Shown here: positions 43,855 through 51,663 of the stretch, piece by piece
How the letters are laid out: every line of letters starts with the position of its first letter
Numbering within the stretch: the stretch's first letter is position 1
Source: Myxococcales bacterium
GTDB taxonomy: Bacteria > Myxococcota_A > Polyangia > Polyangiales > Houyiibacteriaceae
NCBI GenBank assembly: GCA_029863605.1
Contig: JAOTVB010000010.1
Coordinates: 1-64,000 of the forward strand
Direction: 5' to 3'
Length of the DNA stretch: 64,000 nucleotides
Translations under genes and position numbers: made by a program
The notes under the pieces: generated by a model
What the model was told of the DNA's origin: nothing
Seen by the model: only the letters and a program-made list of their open reading frames with translations
The model's database searches: none

Positions 43855-45639
43855 CTACGCCGAACTCCGCTTTCGAATCGCGCGGACTCCGCGCCATGCG
43901 AGAAAGAAAATCAACACGCCCAAACCGGCGACGATCGAAAGGAGCATCGGATCGGGGTTGTTGCGAAGGACATAACGAAAAACCTCTTTGCGCTGGTCGT
44001 AGCCATCCGGGACCGGCAACACCTGATAGTCGCGCGCGTAGCTCCGGTACTCCTCCATCATTTCCGCGAATAGCTCGGGCATCTCTTCTTTGAGATCCGA
44101 GGCCTCCCCCGGGTCGGTGACGAAGTTGAAGAGATGCCATTCGCCATCGCCTACCGGTCCTCGGTCGATGACGACCTTGTGATCCCCCTTGAACAAGGCG
44201 GCGTTACCGGCGAGCTCGTATCCGATGGTTTCGTCCGGCTCGTGCGCTCTGTCGGTTTGTCCCGTGAGCAGTGGTATCAAGCTCTTTCCCCTGATCTCCT
44301 CGACCTCGCGGCCTTGGTAGCTTCCGGCGGGCGGCTTCACGTTCGCGATCTCCAAAATCGTGGGCGCGAGGTCGGTCACGTACGCGAAGGCGTTCGAAAC
44401 GCTCCCCGTATTAGCGACCATGCTCCCCGCGATGATCATGGGGACCCGCATGCCGCCTTCGTGAGCGAAGAACTTGTAATAGGCCAACGGTGATGCGGCT
44501 GCGTTGCCAAAGCTCGGGCCGATGTCGACGAAGCTACCGCGGGTGCCGAGAGTCTCGTAGTCCATGTTGTAACCGTGGGTCGCGAACCACAGCCGAAGGT
44601 AGATCGCCCGCGCGCCGGTCAACACCTCGGTTCCCTCGGGACCGTTGTCCGAGGTGAAAATCAACACGGTGTTGTCGTATTGTTCCGTGTCTTCGAGGTA
44701 CTCGAGGAGCCGGCCGATGTGGTGATCCATCGCATCGATCATGCCGGCGTACACGGCCATCTCTTTGGACTTGTATCTCTTGTCTTCGTTCGTGAGTGAG
44801 TCCCAGTCCGCCGTGCTCGATACCGGCGCCAACTTGGTGTCGGCCGGCACGATGCCGAGGGCTTTGGCGCGTTCGAGCCGGCGTTCCCTGAGCGAGCTCC
44901 ACCCTTCGTCGTAGGTGCCCATGTATTTGTCGGTGTATTCCTGAGGCGCCTGCACCGGCATGTGCACCGCTTGAAACGCGACGTACGAAAAGAAGGGCTT
45001 GCCGTCTGCGCGGTTCGACTCGATGAACTCGATCATATTGTCGACCAAGAACTTCGACGAATAGAAGTCTTTCGGCAACTCGATCTCTTTGCCGTCGCCG
45101 AACCAGTTCGCCTTCTTGTACATCGGCAAGTATGGCTTTTGCTCCCAGTTGTCGGCGCCGGTGTCGGCCATGGCGATGGTGCGCTCGAAACCACGGCGAC
45201 TCGGCAAGAGCGCCGGGGTCTTTCCGAGATGCCACTTGCCGGACATGTAGGTGTGGTAGCCCGCATCCTTGAGGAGCGTCGCGATCGTGACGACGTTTTC
45301 ACCCAACGTCCCCCGATAGTTCGACGATTCCTCGGCCTGAACCGGAGGGATCGCTTCTGGGATGTTCGGCACGCCGTTGAGATGGCTGTCGACGCCCGTC
45401 AAAAGCATTCCGCGCGTGGGCGCACAGCTCGCTGCCGTATGGTAGTTGGTGAACATGACGCCCTGCTCCGCTAGCGTGCTGATCGACGGGGTTGGGATCT
45501 CGCCGCCGTAGGGCGCGGTGTCGGTGAAGCCGAGGTCGTCGGCGAGAATGAGCACGATGTTCGGCGGAGCGGCACGCGCGCCGCTCGCGATCGACGACGT
45601 CAGAAACAAGCAACCCAAGGCCCTCATAGTCAGACGCAT
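43855..45639 (-). CDS. Membrane-anchored sulfatase
   Basis: 594 aa. Signal peptide, then the sulfatase start PPNIVLILADDLGFTDTAPYGG with metal-binding Asp pair, and the modification site C-A-P-T-R-G with Cys72 (CxPxR, to be changed to formylglycine). Later MSGKWHLGK, FTSDNGPEGTE and HEGGMRVPMII are typical arylsulfatase blocks. The C-terminus has a transmembrane helix (LLSIVAGLGVLIFFLAW) and a basic tail, so it is anchored. No formylglycine-generating enzyme lies nearby. The start is ATG 45639; the longer frame upstream is antisense of the antiporter. Confidence 0.9.
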   Translation of the reverse strand: MRLTMRALGCLFLTSSIASGARAAPPNIVLILADDLGFTDTAPYGGEIPTPSISTLAEQGVMFTNYHTAASCAPTRGMLLTGVDSHLNGVPNIPEAIPPVQAEESSNYRGTLGENVVTIATLLKDAGYHTYMSGKWHLGKTPALLPSRRGFERTIAMADTGADNWEQKPYLPMYKKANWFGDGKEIELPKDFYSSKFLVDNMIEFIESNRADGKPFFSYVAFQAVHMPVQAPQEYTDKYMGTYDEGWSSLRERRLERAKALGIVPADTKLAPVSSTADWDSLTNEDKRYKSKEMAVYAGMIDAMDHHIGRLLEYLEDTEQYDNTVLIFTSDNGPEGTEVLTGARAIYLRLWFATHGYNMDYETLGTRGSFVDIGPSFGNAAASPLAYYKFFAHEGGMRVPMIIAGSMVANTGSVSNAFAYVTDLAPTILEIANVKPPAGSYQGREVEEIRGKSLIPLLTGQTDRAHEPDETIGYELAGNAALFKGDHKVVIDRGPVGDGEWHLFNFVTDPGEASDLKEEMPELFAEMMEEYRSYARDYQVLPVPDGYDQRKEVFRYVLRNNPDPMLLSIVAGLGVLIFFLAWRGVRAIRKRSSA

Positions 45640-45660
45640 GGACGCGACATACCACGATAA

Positions 45661-47007
45661 ATGCGTAGTTTGGGTCCCAGCGCTCTCCTTGAGCGCGACC
45701 AACCGGAAATCACCGCCGTAACCGGGGATATCGTGGATACTACTCCGTCTGTGGATTCGACGACCTTCATGTTGATCGCGCTTTTCGTGCTCGGGTACGG
45801 GTTGGTCTCGAAGCGGCTCGAACGGACGATCGTCACGCCTCCGATGGTGTTCGTCGTGCTTGGGCTCGTCTTTGGAAGTGGAAGCTTGGCGACGCTCAGC
45901 ATGCACATCGATCAAGGCGTGATTCACGTCCTTGCCGAGCTGACCCTCGTCCTCGTCCTTTTCGGCGACGCCGCGCGGATCGACCTTCGCACGTTGCGGA
46001 CCGAGCTCGGGCTTCCGGTGCGGCTTCTCGGCGTCGGCATGCCGTTGACGATCATGTTGGGTGCGCTGGTCGCCAAGCTCGTCTTCCCCCAAGTGACGTG
46101 GCTCGAGGCAGCTGCGCTCGGTGCCATCCTGGCCCCGACCGATGCCGCGCTTGGCCAAGCCGTCGTCAGCACGCCTTCGGTCCCGCTCCGCATACGACAG
46201 GCCTTGAATGTGGAGAGCGGATTGAACGACGGCATCGCGTTGCCGGTCGTTTTGATCTTTGCCGCGCTCGCGAGCATGGGCGGAGGCGAGGCGCGCACCG
46301 CGTCGGAGTGGATCTGGTTCGCGGCGCTCCAGGTGACACTCGGTCCGTTGGCAGGCTTTGCGGTCGCCTGGGTCGGTGGCCGATTGATCAACGGTTCCGA
46401 GAGTCGCGGATGGATGAATAGCAGCTTTGCGAGGCTCGCCGGCATCGCGCTGGCGCTTCTCGCATTCACGGGAGCTCAGCAGATCGGCGGCAACGGCTTC
46501 ATCGCGGCATTCGTGGCGGGCATGACCCTCGGCAACAGCCAACGAGGCCAGTGCGAGTACCTCTACCAGTTCCTCGAGGCTGAAGGCCAGCTGTTGGTGC
46601 TGCTCGTGTTCTTGCTGCTCGGCGTGTCGCTCGCCTGGCCGGCGATCGCACAAGGTAACGGTCGCATCTGGCTCTACGCTGCGTTGAGCTTGACGGTCAT
46701 CCGGATGGTCCCGGTTGCGATTTCGATGCTCGGGAGTGGGCTACGGGCACCAAGCGTGGTTTTCCTCGGCTGGTTCGGGCCTCGCGGGCTGGCTTCGCTG
46801 TTGTTTGCGATCCTGATCTTGGAAGAAGCCGCCCTCCCCCACGGTGCTTTGGTTTTCGACGTCGTGATCCTCACCGTGCTCGCGAGCGTGTTCGCACACG
46901 GCATGAGCGCCGCGCCCGCAGCCGCGTGGTACGGTCAGATGGCGGGTGACGCGACGCACTGCCCCGAAGAGCACAAGACTGTCGTCGAACAGCCGCTGCG
47001 AATTTGA
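45661..47007 (+). CDS. CPA1-type cation:proton antiporter
   Basis: 448 aa with about twelve membrane helices. Key motifs: GAILAPTDAALGQAVV and NVESGLNDGIALPVVLIF, the Asn-Asp pair of electroneutral NhaP-type antiporters. It exchanges Na+ or K+ for H+ across the inner membrane. The start ATG 45661 precedes a non-hydrophobic stretch; a later start such as ATG 45769 cannot be excluded. Only 21 bases lie between its ATG and that of the divergent sulfatase. Confidence 0.85.
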   Translation: MRSLGPSALLERDQPEITAVTGDIVDTTPSVDSTTFMLIALFVLGYGLVSKRLERTIVTPPMVFVVLGLVFGSGSLATLSMHIDQGVIHVLAELTLVLVLFGDAARIDLRTLRTELGLPVRLLGVGMPLTIMLGALVAKLVFPQVTWLEAAALGAILAPTDAALGQAVVSTPSVPLRIRQALNVESGLNDGIALPVVLIFAALASMGGGEARTASEWIWFAALQVTLGPLAGFAVAWVGGRLINGSESRGWMNSSFARLAGIALALLAFTGAQQIGGNGFIAAFVAGMTLGNSQRGQCEYLYQFLEAEGQLLVLLVFLLLGVSLAWPAIAQGNGRIWLYAALSLTVIRMVPVAISMLGSGLRAPSVVFLGWFGPRGLASLLFAILILEEAALPHGALVFDVVILTVLASVFAHGMSAAPAAAWYGQMAGDATHCPEEHKTVVEQPLRI

Positions 47008-47016
47008 GAAGCAGCA

Positions 47017-49452
47017 TCACTTCCAACCCCTGAAGCTCAGCCCTTCCCCGGGCTTGTATCCCACCTGGCGCTGCCGCACGACATTGTCCTTGTCCACCAG
47101 AACCATGGTTGGGGTACCGCTCACCCCGTACGCGAGAAAGCTGGCTCGCAGCCGGTCGGTGGCGACCAGCGTGAAGAACTCCTCTGGGTGCGTATTGAGA
47201 AAGCCGGCGACCCGGGCGCTGTCCTCGTCCGTGATCGCCACAACCGCAATTTCCTGCGCGGCGGCAAAGGCCATCACCTCGGGGATCGCCTTCTTGCAGG
47301 GCCCGCACCAGGTGGCCCAGAAGAAGAGGAGACGGGGTCGACCCTGGAGATCGGGCAGGCTGCCGCCGCCGACCTGCTCGAGACCGGCCGGCAGCGAAGG
47401 CGCCAGCTGTCCGAGCTTGGGTGGTCCAGGCAGCTCAGGCCATTCGAGCGGGAGGGGGCGCAAGACTGGCGAGGCGACGAACTCCAGGTCTTCGTCGGGC
47501 TGCGGGCCGGGGCGGATCACCCGCAACGGCATCGGCGTGTTGCGCGGAGAGGTCATCGTCCATTCACGAAGCTGACCGTAGAAGTCGAACGTCCTCTCGG
47601 GAGGTCCCAGAACGACGTCGCCGACTTCGAGGCCCGCCTCCAAGGCGGGTGATTTCGGAAACACCGCCTGCAACCAGCTGGCACCGATCGGGATCTGGCG
47701 GCCGGCGCGCACCCCTTCGGGCACCGCCGCGTACTTCACACCCAGCCAGGACGGCAGAACCTCTTCCAGCAGGTCGAGCTCGTCGGCCAGCGCCGGGAAG
47801 GCGTCGATCAGGGGTGGCTCGAGCCCGAACCATCGCCGCCGAAGCTCGCCGGGCTCAAACGCTTCGCAGCTCAACAGGGACTCCAGGGCCTTCTGTTGGT
47901 CCCGGCGGCGCCCGGCTTCGGTACCTACGGCCGCACGCTCCGCGAGCAGGACTCGACCCGCGACGGCTATCAGTACGGACCGCATCCGGCGCAGGGCCCC
48001 ACCCCGAACGTCCAGCCGCCAGCGTGCCTGCGACGCCCCGCGCGCCCGCTCGCGGAGCCCTTCGAGCCGTTCCCAAATCTCCGGTCGATCGCGCGCGAAC
48101 GGCTCGAGCTCCGACAGCAGCTCACCGAGAAGAACGCCCCTTTGCTCGGCGTCCAGCGTCTGCAGATGGGCTTGCTGCAGGAGCTCTTGCCACTCGGGCA
48201 GCTCCCGCATGAACTTTCGCAGGATCTCTTCTTTGACGGCGACCAGGGTCCCCTTCCATCGCTCCGAGAAGTCCTTCATCTTCTCCGCAAGCGGCCGGAG
48301 CTCCCCTTCGTAGCCCTTCAACTCCGCGAGACTGCGCGGACTGAACGTGCCAAACGCCTCGCCGATCCCGTCGAGAAGCCGGATCTCGGGCTCCCAGGCC
48401 GCGCGATCTTGCCAGGCCTTGGCGAGCAACGAGTCAACCAGCGAGTCTAACCCTACTCCACGAGCCTCGGCCTCCTCGGTAACCAGCCGCTCGAGATACA
48501 AGTCGCTGGTGCGCATCGGGACATCCGGAGTGCTATCGGTGAGCAGCACGTCGAGATGGGCCTGGTCCGTTGCCTGGTTGCGGTCGAGCGCGTCGATAAA
48601 GCGGAACGCGTGACCGATCCGGTCGCGATCCCGCCCTTCCGGATAGCAGCCGTAGGCCTGGCGATCGCGCGTCGTCGAGAAAAAGCCGCAGGCATGGCCA
48701 CCGGGCTCGCCGGAGAGATCGTCGTAGATGGTGGCCGCAAACGTGCCCGAGTAGCACTGACTCATCACCATCACCGTCTGGACACCCGGCCTGAGCCGTT
48801 TAAGAAGCCCCTTGAACTCCTCCACCGTCAGCTGCTCTCGCCAGAGCGAGATGGCGCCGTTGTCCGGTTGCTGGCGATTCTCGGTCCCATGGTCGGTCAC
48901 AAAGACCAACAGCCGATCACCTGGCAGCAGGTATTCCGCATCGGCGAACCACTGTTCCAGGGCTTGCTTCCTCGCCGGATGCAGGGTCACTCCAGGCCAA
49001 CGGGTGTCGGTGACCTCGGTGCGGGGCTCGAGCTTCTTGCCGATGCGCGTCCCCTCGAGAAGCCAAAAGCCGTCAGGCTGCGTATCGCGAACCGCGAGAT
49101 CCGGCGCCTCGTCGGCGCCGTCGGCAGAGAAGATATGGATCCGGTCGCGGGGCAGGCCACGTGCCAGGAGCACCTGCACCATCTCCTGCAGGTGGTGCAG
49201 ATGGCTCTGGTAGTTCGACTCGGGCCGGGAGCCGCCGTTGATCAGCAGAGCGTGGGTGACGCCCTCCTCGGTCGCAACGGTATCGGGGACGCGCGCTTTC
49301 GTCGCGTCGTCTCCCGTCAGCAGTCCATGGACCAACCAAAGGGCGGCTAGCGCGTTTCCCGCTAGGAGTCCAGCGACCAACACAAGGGCGGCTAGCGCAA
49401 CACCCGCACCCCAACGCCAAGCGTACACATTTCGTGGTTGCGTCATGGCCAT
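47017..49452 (-). CDS. C13/C14-like peptidase - PDZ-like - thioredoxin fusion
   Basis: 811 aa, three modules. (1) A membrane helix at 17-40, then a clan CD cysteine peptidase of legumain/caspase-like type: HALLINGGSRPESNY, catalytic His in FVTDHGTEN (His188) and Cys in MVMSQCYSGTF (Cys233), followed by the GFFSTTRDRQAYG strand usual in this fold. (2) A helical middle, then a PDZ-like segment (about 590-665): FPKSPALEAGLEVGDVVLG. (3) A TlpA/ResA-like thioredoxin at the C-terminus with FFWATWCGPCKKAIPEV (Cys716, Cys719) and cis-Pro in GTPTMVLVD. All catalytic residues are present. A periplasmic, redox-linked protease is a reasonable guess; substrates are unknown. Confidence 0.85.
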   Translation of the reverse strand: MAMTQPRNVYAWRWGAGVALAALVLVAGLLAGNALAALWLVHGLLTGDDATKARVPDTVATEEGVTHALLINGGSRPESNYQSHLHHLQEMVQVLLARGLPRDRIHIFSADGADEAPDLAVRDTQPDGFWLLEGTRIGKKLEPRTEVTDTRWPGVTLHPARKQALEQWFADAEYLLPGDRLLVFVTDHGTENRQQPDNGAISLWREQLTVEEFKGLLKRLRPGVQTVMVMSQCYSGTFAATIYDDLSGEPGGHACGFFSTTRDRQAYGCYPEGRDRDRIGHAFRFIDALDRNQATDQAHLDVLLTDSTPDVPMRTSDLYLERLVTEEAEARGVGLDSLVDSLLAKAWQDRAAWEPEIRLLDGIGEAFGTFSPRSLAELKGYEGELRPLAEKMKDFSERWKGTLVAVKEEILRKFMRELPEWQELLQQAHLQTLDAEQRGVLLGELLSELEPFARDRPEIWERLEGLRERARGASQARWRLDVRGGALRRMRSVLIAVAGRVLLAERAAVGTEAGRRRDQQKALESLLSCEAFEPGELRRRWFGLEPPLIDAFPALADELDLLEEVLPSWLGVKYAAVPEGVRAGRQIPIGASWLQAVFPKSPALEAGLEVGDVVLGPPERTFDFYGQLREWTMTSPRNTPMPLRVIRPGPQPDEDLEFVASPVLRPLPLEWPELPGPPKLGQLAPSLPAGLEQVGGGSLPDLQGRPRLLFFWATWCGPCKKAIPEVMAFAAAQEIAVVAITDEDSARVAGFLNTHPEEFFTLVATDRLRASFLAYGVSGTPTMVLVDKDNVVRQRQVGYKPGEGLSFRGWK

Positions 49453-49575: not shown

Positions 49576-51663
49576 TCAGGTGTCCGAGTCGCCGACCTGA
49601 AGCACGCGCATCATCTCGTGATCCTCGTGCGAGAGGATGTGACAGTGCCAGACATAGCGCCCCGACTTGTTGAACTCAGCCTTGATCCTGACAAGTTGGC
49701 CCGTTGGGGGAGCTCCCTCTGGGTCGCCGGGCAGCGAGGTCACCATGTCTTTGGGCGCAGCCTCGAAGTACTCCGACCCGACGGAGGCGGGGGTGAAGTT
49801 TCGAATGTTGGATATCTCCGGTGCCTCGCCCGTTGTGCCGTTGTGCTGCATGGTTGTCTGCGTACCGGTGATGTCGTACTCGAAATCCTGCCGATCCAAG
49901 ATTTCGAAGTTCACCAGGTGCAGATGGATGGGATGTGCATCCGCAGTGAAGTTGTAGATCTCCCAGATCTCCGTGCTGTCCAAGGCCGGGGTCTCGGTGG
50001 TCGGCCGGAACCACGTGTAGGCGGTGGCGACGTTTGTGCCGCTGAGATCGCTGCCTACCGTGCCGAGTAGTGGCTGCAAGCGGCCAAACTCGTCTGTTCC
50101 CTCGAAGAGCGCAACCCTGCGCGTCGTGGCACCGTTGGGGACGCCTCCATAGCCGGGGAGGAGGTTATCCGGATCGAACTCATCGGGCACATTCGAGAGC
50201 GGCACCACGACGTCGAAGGCCATGATGCGATCGGTCTGTCGAAAGGGGAACAGGTCGTCTGGATCGAGGTCGCCGCCAAAGGCGCCGCCAAACGGGGCAT
50301 CGCCACCGAGGTTCTTGATGATGACCCGGCTGCCAGAGGGCACTTGCGAGAAGTCGACGACGACGTCGTAGCGTCCGCCCGGCTCGATCACCAGCGTGTC
50401 GGTCATTTGTGGCGTTCCAAGACCCTGATCGCTGCCAATGACATAGAAAGGCAGCGGAGTACCCATGGTTGGATCTGTCTCGCCGGCGTTGACGGCAACA
50501 AACTGGACGACCAAGAACCGCGAGTCGGTGCCGTTCAATAGATGCATCCGGTAGTTTCGCGGCTCGACGTCGGCCTTGGGCCAGATCTTGCCGTTGACCA
50601 CGATGTGATCACCAAAGAACTCGGCGAGCGCCGTCGGTCCGCCGCCCGGGAAGATGTCGGGTGGAAGGATGGCCCCTTCGCCGGTAATGAAGTCGTCGTA
50701 GAACGGGTCGCCCGGAAATGCCGGGTAAAAGAGCGCGCCCTTGTCGGTGAAGATGCGGCCCTGGATGGCGTAGGCCAGCTCGTACGGAAAGGCGGGAAGG
50801 CCTAGTGGGTTGTCCGGCAAGCCGGTATCGAACTCGTCGCGGACGAAATAGAAGCCGGCGAGCCCCGCATAGACGTTGAGCCGGGTGATGCCGAGCGCGT
50901 GGTCGTGGTACCAGAGGTTTCCGGCCGGCACGTTGTTGTTGTATCGGAAGGTGTTGGTGAAGCCGCCGGGCACGGCATCCCACTGCGGACCTTTGACGCC
51001 ACCATCCGGGCTGTAGAAGAACTCTGGGTTGCCATCAAACTGAAAATCGGAATTTCCACCGTGCAGGTGGGTGATGATCGGGACCCCGTTTTTCTTGATG
51101 GAGAACTGTCGGTAATCGACGCCATTGGCGGAGCTGTCCCCATGGAGCGAGTAGCACCAGTGCACGCTGGTATCGACGGGAAGCAGGTGGCGGTTACCGA
51201 GCTCGTTTTCCCAGCGGACCACAGTCTCATCCGCCCCGCCAGCCGATGTGCTCATCACCTGGAAGGTCTGACCGGGCCAGGACACCGTATCCGTACCGTA
51301 GCCCCAGACTTTGGTCTTCAGCCGCTTGCCGTTTCTCGGATCGATGAGGCCGGTCTCCTGAATGGTCTGTCTCGCGCGGATGGAGAAGTTCGGTTTCTGA
51401 GCCGGTTTGCCGTCGACGTTGAGATCCTTAAAAAGGAAGCCCGGATCGAGCGCGTTTGGTGCCAACTCGACGAACTTCGGTTGTAGCGCAGGGTCGGAAA
51501 GACCGGCGGCCAATGGCACGGCGCGAGCTTTCGCCACCCAGCGCGAAAACGGCAGCGCTGCTGTGACGCCTGCAGCGCCACTGACCTTGAGGAAGTCTCT
51601 TCGCCGAAAGCCGGCAACCATCTTGTGCCCGGCTTGGCCCTTCGTCTTCTTTCTTTTTGGCAT
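49576..51663 (-). CDS. Tat-exported multicopper oxidase
   Basis: 695 aa. A twin-arginine signal is present (RRRDFLKVSGAAGVTAALPF). All four copper motifs of a three-domain laccase/CotA-like oxidase are seen: HLHGGNSD (~197), WYHDHALG (~251), HPIHLH (~575) and WHCHILSHEDHEMM (~670), the last giving the type-1 ligands with Met. It oxidises phenolic, bilirubin-like or metal substrates with O2. No copper chaperone or export genes are adjacent. The peptidase-thioredoxin gene follows 123 bases downstream on the same strand. Confidence 0.93.
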   Translation of the reverse strand: MPKRKKTKGQAGHKMVAGFRRRDFLKVSGAAGVTAALPFSRWVAKARAVPLAAGLSDPALQPKFVELAPNALDPGFLFKDLNVDGKPAQKPNFSIRARQTIQETGLIDPRNGKRLKTKVWGYGTDTVSWPGQTFQVMSTSAGGADETVVRWENELGNRHLLPVDTSVHWCYSLHGDSSANGVDYRQFSIKKNGVPIITHLHGGNSDFQFDGNPEFFYSPDGGVKGPQWDAVPGGFTNTFRYNNNVPAGNLWYHDHALGITRLNVYAGLAGFYFVRDEFDTGLPDNPLGLPAFPYELAYAIQGRIFTDKGALFYPAFPGDPFYDDFITGEGAILPPDIFPGGGPTALAEFFGDHIVVNGKIWPKADVEPRNYRMHLLNGTDSRFLVVQFVAVNAGETDPTMGTPLPFYVIGSDQGLGTPQMTDTLVIEPGGRYDVVVDFSQVPSGSRVIIKNLGGDAPFGGAFGGDLDPDDLFPFRQTDRIMAFDVVVPLSNVPDEFDPDNLLPGYGGVPNGATTRRVALFEGTDEFGRLQPLLGTVGSDLSGTNVATAYTWFRPTTETPALDSTEIWEIYNFTADAHPIHLHLVNFEILDRQDFEYDITGTQTTMQHNGTTGEAPEISNIRNFTPASVGSEYFEAAPKDMVTSLPGDPEGAPPTGQLVRIKAEFNKSGRYVWHCHILSHEDHEMMRVLQVGDSDT

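Follow-up and report, generated by a model that had tools for sequence, protein, structure and literature searches.

The window, i.e. the whole stretch of 64,000 nucleotides analysed here, carries on its minus strand a gene in which a membrane anchor, a C13 peptidase domain, a helical region, an HtrA-type PDZ domain and a TlpA/ResA-type thioredoxin follow one another in a single chain. The gene, its parts and its upstream neighbour are as follows:

47017..49452 (-): fusion gene, 811 codons plus stop, a single open frame
49452 (-): first ATG, start of the annotated frame
49446 (-): second ATG, residue 3, the likelier start
49318..49410 (-): N-terminal membrane anchor helix, residues 15-45, a hydrophobic stretch and a helix in the model
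48463..49272 (-): C13 (legumain-type) peptidase domain, about residues 61-330, from PF01650 and the legumain fold
48889..48891 (-): catalytic His188 in TDHG, paired with legumain FTDHG in the profile alignment
48754..48756 (-): catalytic Cys233 in QCYSG, paired with legumain ACESG in the profile alignment
48688..48690 (-): Cys255, non-catalytic, conserved in all complete relatives but L120 and L121
48646..48648 (-): Cys269, non-catalytic, conserved, in an AYGC loop of low model confidence
47818..48462 (-): helical region, residues 331-545, containing Cys529-Glu530, no Pfam match
47866..47868 (-): Cys529 of the Cys-Glu motif
47452..47751 (-): HtrA-type PDZ domain, residues 568-667, from the fold match and from Pfam matches in relatives
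47020..47427 (-): TlpA/ResA-type thioredoxin, residues 676-811, from the Redoxin match and the fold
47296..47307 (-): CGPC active site with Cys716 and Cys719, part of WCGPC
49576-51663 (-): TAT-signal multicopper oxidase gene, the immediate upstream neighbour of the fusion gene

The preliminary description had read this gene as one 811-residue frame behind a membrane helix, and indeed the number of internal stops on the minus strand is 0, the motifs lie at the residues named there and the helix is found both as a hydrophobic stretch and in the model. As the start of the protein the second ATG is likely, because it is the only one kept in the 90%-identical relative L037. An AlphaFold model of the whole protein reached a mean pLDDT of 78.6 and a pTM of 0.68.

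Is the fusion genuine, or has a frameshift, which the preliminary description had named as a possible refutation, or a chimera joined two or three ordinary genes? Other genomes also encode each part on its own, as such a join would imply; against it stands the same order of parts in numerous assemblies made independently and spread over several phyla. The proposed search for relatives sharing this order returned about 34 proteins with the identical four-part arrangement, from Myxococcota, Acidobacteriota and Binatota. One-frame fusions of this kind include a full-length copy in the same genus (L037, genome G017), an Acidobacteria copy at 54% identity to the window protein (L038), copies at 41-42% from a Binatia member (L040) and from a Deltaproteobacterium assembled from a metagenome (L039), and several from Myxococcota at 28-32%. 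Because full-length relatives exist at 28-90% identity, we reject the artefactual join and give it practically no credence. The substitution pattern further indicates that every part of the protein is under purifying selection: dN/dS against L037 is 0.26 for the whole gene and 0.19, 0.21, 0.22 and 0.37 for the peptidase, helical, PDZ and thioredoxin parts, which makes the thioredoxin the least constrained folded domain in this comparison of the two closest sequences.

The catalytic pair of His188 and Cys233 had been called legumain- or caspase-like, and we could assign it to the C13, legumain type. Peptidase_C13 (PF01650) matches residues 177-293 with 24.9 bits (Pfam cut-off 22.8, E 1.8e-5), as well as 12 of the 14 rows of alignment A1, the remaining two being C-terminal fragments, and 22 of the 33 proteins of a wider relative set at E<=0.01. 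Peptidase_C14 matched neither the window protein at E<=1 nor any of the 33 relatives at E<=0.01, and a metacaspase-4 chain matched the window protein weakly (E 0.015). The region before residue 330, on whose fold the earlier claim depended, superposes in the AlphaFold model on the legumain catalytic fold (5zbi) with Z 17.5 and an rmsd of 3.7 over 237 aligned residues. Cys233 is kept in every complete relative and His188 in all full-length fused relatives but one; L179 is a fusion without the catalytic His, in which QG replaces HG. Since the three folds were confirmed and the catalytic dyad is conserved, the peptidase domain is, as judged from sequence and models, probably catalytically active. 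In legumain, Arg44 (human numbering) is a residue of the S1 pocket (PMC4357240). The profile alignment, whose coverage of the legumain chains leaves out the Asp231 region, pairs it with Gln82 of the window protein, with a gap nearby; Arg44 is thus not kept at the aligned position and asparagine specificity should not be assumed.

The helices of the AlphaFold model span residues 315-530. A Pfam scan of the peptidase plus helical segment gave C13 as its sole match and no family over 331-545, into which the legumain structure matches extend without resolving it; in legumain proper the C-terminal activation peptide and the LSAM prodomain follow the catalytic domain. The helical region is part of the peptidase unit. 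Most peptidase-only proteins end 2-12 residues past the conserved Cys-Glu, which in the fusions precedes the PDZ domain.

A PDZ-like segment had been suspected near residue 620. In the window copy its sequence signal is weak (PDZ_6, E 0.022, below the cut-off), and the Do-family protease model TIGR02037 (E 2.8e-5, below its own cut-off) covers 556-650, the PDZ part alone. In 10 of the 14 relatives of alignment A1, PDZ_2 and PDZ_6 match with values down to 2.3e-10. Modelled separately, residues 541-670 (pLDDT 85) superpose on DegQ PDZ1 with Z 14.5 and an rmsd of 1.7 over 92 residues, with the PDZ domains of DegQ, DegP and DegS ranking first, so that the segment is now placed at 568-667 as an HtrA-type PDZ. 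The thioredoxin with WCGPC at 716-719 is borne out as well: Redoxin matches the window protein with E 8.9e-13, Redoxin, AhpC-TSA and thioredoxin models fall at 681-804, and the AlphaFold model aligns with ResA/DsbE thioredoxins over 130 residues (Z 18.1, rmsd 1.8). Cys716 and Cys719 are invariant among the 12 fused proteins first aligned.

How did such a protein arise? The peptidase plus helical module occurs in 63 of 379 sampled Myxococcota genomes (E<=1e-12), a large and apparently undescribed C13 branch. A census of 98 distinct frames, a search-driven set pooled from all searches rather than a random sample, comprises 49 peptidase-only, 34 peptidase-PDZ-thioredoxin, 11 peptidase-PDZ and 4 peptidase-thioredoxin proteins. 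A few of its peptidase-only frames are cut at contig ends or broken. L158 was recoded by hand as fused because of the length of its tail and two cysteines that align, L177 is marked uncertain, and in L141, L009/L070 and L048 a fusion is interrupted by a stop, by contig ends or by a frameshift. In the peptidase plus helical tree (94 rows, built by a quick method with SH-aLRT support only, unrooted), a 100% branch separates all fused forms and their derivatives from the peptidase-only proteins; the peptidase-thioredoxin form arose once, and the peptidase-PDZ form takes three changes. The thioredoxin tree, built from few alignment columns and likewise unrooted, has a 99/91 branch between stand-alone and fused proteins, the exceptions being cut or broken fusions that group with the fused side. 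These trees fit a single fusion, inherited as a unit, of a peptidase plus helical protein with a PDZ-thioredoxin unit. They also fit the peptidase plus helical protein, still found alone, as the older partner, and a later loss of the thioredoxin or the PDZ in some lineages. The direction is unproven in unrooted trees, but the peptidase-only proteins do mostly end just past the Cys-Glu after which the PDZ begins to follow in the fusions. The gene is present in 3 of 19 genomes of the window's own genus, and in the peptidase tree its copy in the window is placed with that of the Acidobacteria and not with the third genus member, which suggests horizontal transfer.

Because the peptidase is widespread without thioredoxin or PDZ, neither is required for its basic function, and because PDZ-thioredoxin proteins of the same domain order are common as stand-alone proteins, this pair works as a unit without the peptidase. 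Three genomes (G106, G163 and G085) each encode one peptidase-PDZ and one peptidase-thioredoxin paralogue, as if the cell needed both tools joined to the peptidase, and G060 has a thioredoxin-only peptidase copy plus a full fusion. The split pair is not universal, since a class search in six further genomes (G155, G138, G159, G111, G125 and G150; assemblies 76-93% complete) returned peptidase-PDZ and no thioredoxin-bearing copy. Split genes lying side by side, as a Rosetta-stone link, were found neither around unfused peptidases nor around stand-alone PDZ-thioredoxins.

Nearly all relatives with an intact N-terminus bear a signal peptide, an anchor or a lipobox. The fusion gene starts 123 bases downstream of the multicopper oxidase gene on the same strand; an operon of the two was rejected, as the 90%-identical relative does not have the two genes together. 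We found no universal neighbour gene of the peptidase; the clusters that recur reflect local synteny or consist of frames antisense to the peptidase. In one subclade, whose neighbourhood is absent from the window, the fusion lies near DsbD (L041/L049), near a TlpA/CcmG-like gene (L044/L046/L047) and near a CcmH-like gene (L046/L047). In the latter two loci (L046:4108-5625, L047:3906-5479) the fusion is immediately preceded by a TlpA/CcmG-like and then a CcmH-like gene, which look like a ccmG-ccmH pair. The corresponding upstream position in L041 (L041:3257-4696) and L049 (L049:4197-5642) is taken by a sequence that by eye resembles formylglycine-generating enzyme and adjoins a Ser/Thr-kinase-like gene. 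On the window's minus strand we also note a sulfatase frame of 932 residues at 43855-46653; its true start likely lies further in, and its first ~340 residues probably run antisense through a Na+/H+ exchanger gene at 45661-47007.

A DsbD_TM protein is encoded in 11 of 11 tested genomes, which says little because 10 of 14 control genomes have one as well. The window genome has one DsbD_TM protein and several DsbA-like proteins; from the latter, the envelope of the organism is probably oxidising. Outside the window, the same genome holds a 673-residue frame with three tandem DsbA-like (PF01323) domains (G000:C28:429904-431649), which is also found in G017:C8.

HtrA-type PDZ domains such as those of DegS and DegP bind exposed C-terminal tails. 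The analysis shows which domains the fusion has, that they lie on one chain with signals for export, how they are conserved and how they evolved, whereas we infer peptidase activity, the type of PDZ ligand, the direction of electron flow and clients common to the three domains. The reading that we favour is an envelope protease whose PDZ would recruit clients, whose thioredoxin would reduce them and perhaps the catalytic cysteine, and whose legumain-type domain would cleave them, a tentative reading to which we assign a probability of about 0.4. On this view one chain combines a membrane-anchored C13 cysteine peptidase with a PDZ of the HtrA type and a reductase of the TlpA type. The PDZ would capture exposed tails of exported client proteins, and the thioredoxin, recharged by the DsbD-type membrane reductase of the cell, would open disulfides in the captured client and could also restore an oxidised Cys233, after which the legumain-type domain would cut the client. 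We place the thioredoxin's role at the client mainly because the PDZ-thioredoxin unit exists independently and because paralogues split the two domains. The reading is weakened by the wide occurrence of the peptidase without either accessory domain, by a DsbD/Ccm neighbourhood limited to one subclade, and by the lower constraint on the thioredoxin. That all of this amounts to a one-chain 'capture, reduce and cut' envelope machine, HtrA-like with a legumain-type peptidase in place of the serine protease and with its own disulfide reductase, is a possibility to which we give still less weight.

Which other roles could the attached thioredoxin have? The preliminary description had proposed that it could act on a disulfide of the protease or its substrate, by reduction or as a sensor. 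What it had said of the domains, of their single frame, of the anchor and of how rare the combination is all stands; specific support for a redox switch on the protease itself did not emerge, and some evidence speaks against that form of the idea. Such a switch in cis would lock the protease by a disulfide, e.g. Cys255-Cys529 or Cys233-Cys269, which the thioredoxin opens. The window protein has six cysteines (Cys233, Cys255, Cys269, Cys529, Cys716 and Cys719), all invariant among the 12 fused proteins first aligned, and the near invariance of the three non-catalytic ones in the peptidase unit would agree with a switch. Cys269, which may be equivalent to the cysteine in the SSYAC stretch of human legumain, lies in a loop with pLDDT under 50. 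Cys255 and Cys529 are both absent from L120 and L121, where Cys233 and Cys269 are the peptidase cysteines left; this joint absence hints that they pair with each other, but it is one event in two close relatives. Cys233, Cys255, Cys269 and Cys529 are all present in 40 peptidase-only and 11 of 11 peptidase-PDZ proteins, so that the three non-catalytic ones are equally constant in ~50 thioredoxin-free relatives and in fusions. The fusion L129, with its CxxC decayed to SGKG, retains all four. These cysteines are therefore not explicable as targets made for the attached thioredoxin, and a thioredoxin that reduces client disulfides or protects the catalytic cysteine fits the data at least as well as one that controls a protease disulfide; we consider the switch improbable.

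The strongest rival to client reduction is that the thioredoxin guards the active site, keeping the lone Cys233 reduced in an oxidising compartment in the manner of DsbG. The DsbA-like proteins and the probably oxidising envelope of the organism agree with this, as does the tether, which gives a high local thioredoxin concentration, and the protection of single cysteines in periplasmic enzymes by DsbG/DsbD is a described precedent (PMC7089426). However, ~50 relatives have the same catalytic cysteine without a thioredoxin, and a PDZ would be superfluous for protecting it; we regard the guard as unlikely, if less so than the switch. The legumain-type domain might also cut and transfer tails of exported proteins, presented by the PDZ and the thioredoxin. 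GPI transamidase PIG-K cuts and transfers protein tails, and it is among the fold matches (Z 15.8), next to a PDZ of the tail-binding type; yet legumains match the fold equally or better and no sorting-signal partner was found, which leaves sorting or transpeptidation very unlikely.

How an oxidising envelope handles misfolded disulfide-bonded proteins is only partly understood. If capture, reduction and cutting by the fusion were true, a single protein could unfold and degrade disulfide-bonded clients, and some bacteria would have, in a protease that brings its own reductase, a direct way of dealing with such proteins. The family also offers natural experiments, the peptidase with both accessory domains, with either one or with neither, and where paralogue pairs split PDZ and thioredoxin within one genome, what each domain does can be tested. 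In Myxococcota, moreover, the C13 branch itself is now documented in 63 of the 379 sampled genomes.

In summary, each domain of the fusion is already known and its layout resembles HtrA, while the combination itself was not found described. No Pfam, NCBIfam or PADLOC model names it, in line with the rarity that had been noted for protease plus thioredoxin, and a literature search, with subscription journals thinly covered, found no description. A known anti-phage defence protein was rejected, as PADLOC gave no match. With legumain and the other C13 (clan CD) peptidases including PIG-K, the window protein shares the catalytic fold, the His and Cys motifs and a secretory or exported location; it differs by Gln82 at the Arg44 position, by the added PDZ and thioredoxin, and probably by its helical region, which has no sequence match to the legumain C-terminal prodomain. 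TlpA, ResA and CcmG (DsbE) have in common with it the fold, WCxxC, a conserved TPT (residues 780-782) and export, whereas the reductase of the fusion is not free and forms the C-terminal domain of a protease chain. The stand-alone PDZ-thioredoxin proteins (~250-400 residues) hold the same two domains in the same order; unlike the fusion, they are without peptidase, and in the thioredoxin tree they branch apart from it. Like DegP, DegQ and DegS, the fusion is an envelope protease followed by an HtrA-type PDZ, and recognition of client tails is likely shared; in place of the trypsin-like serine domain, for which Pfam and NCBIfam scans of the window protein gave no match, it has a clan CD cysteine peptidase, to which a thioredoxin is added.
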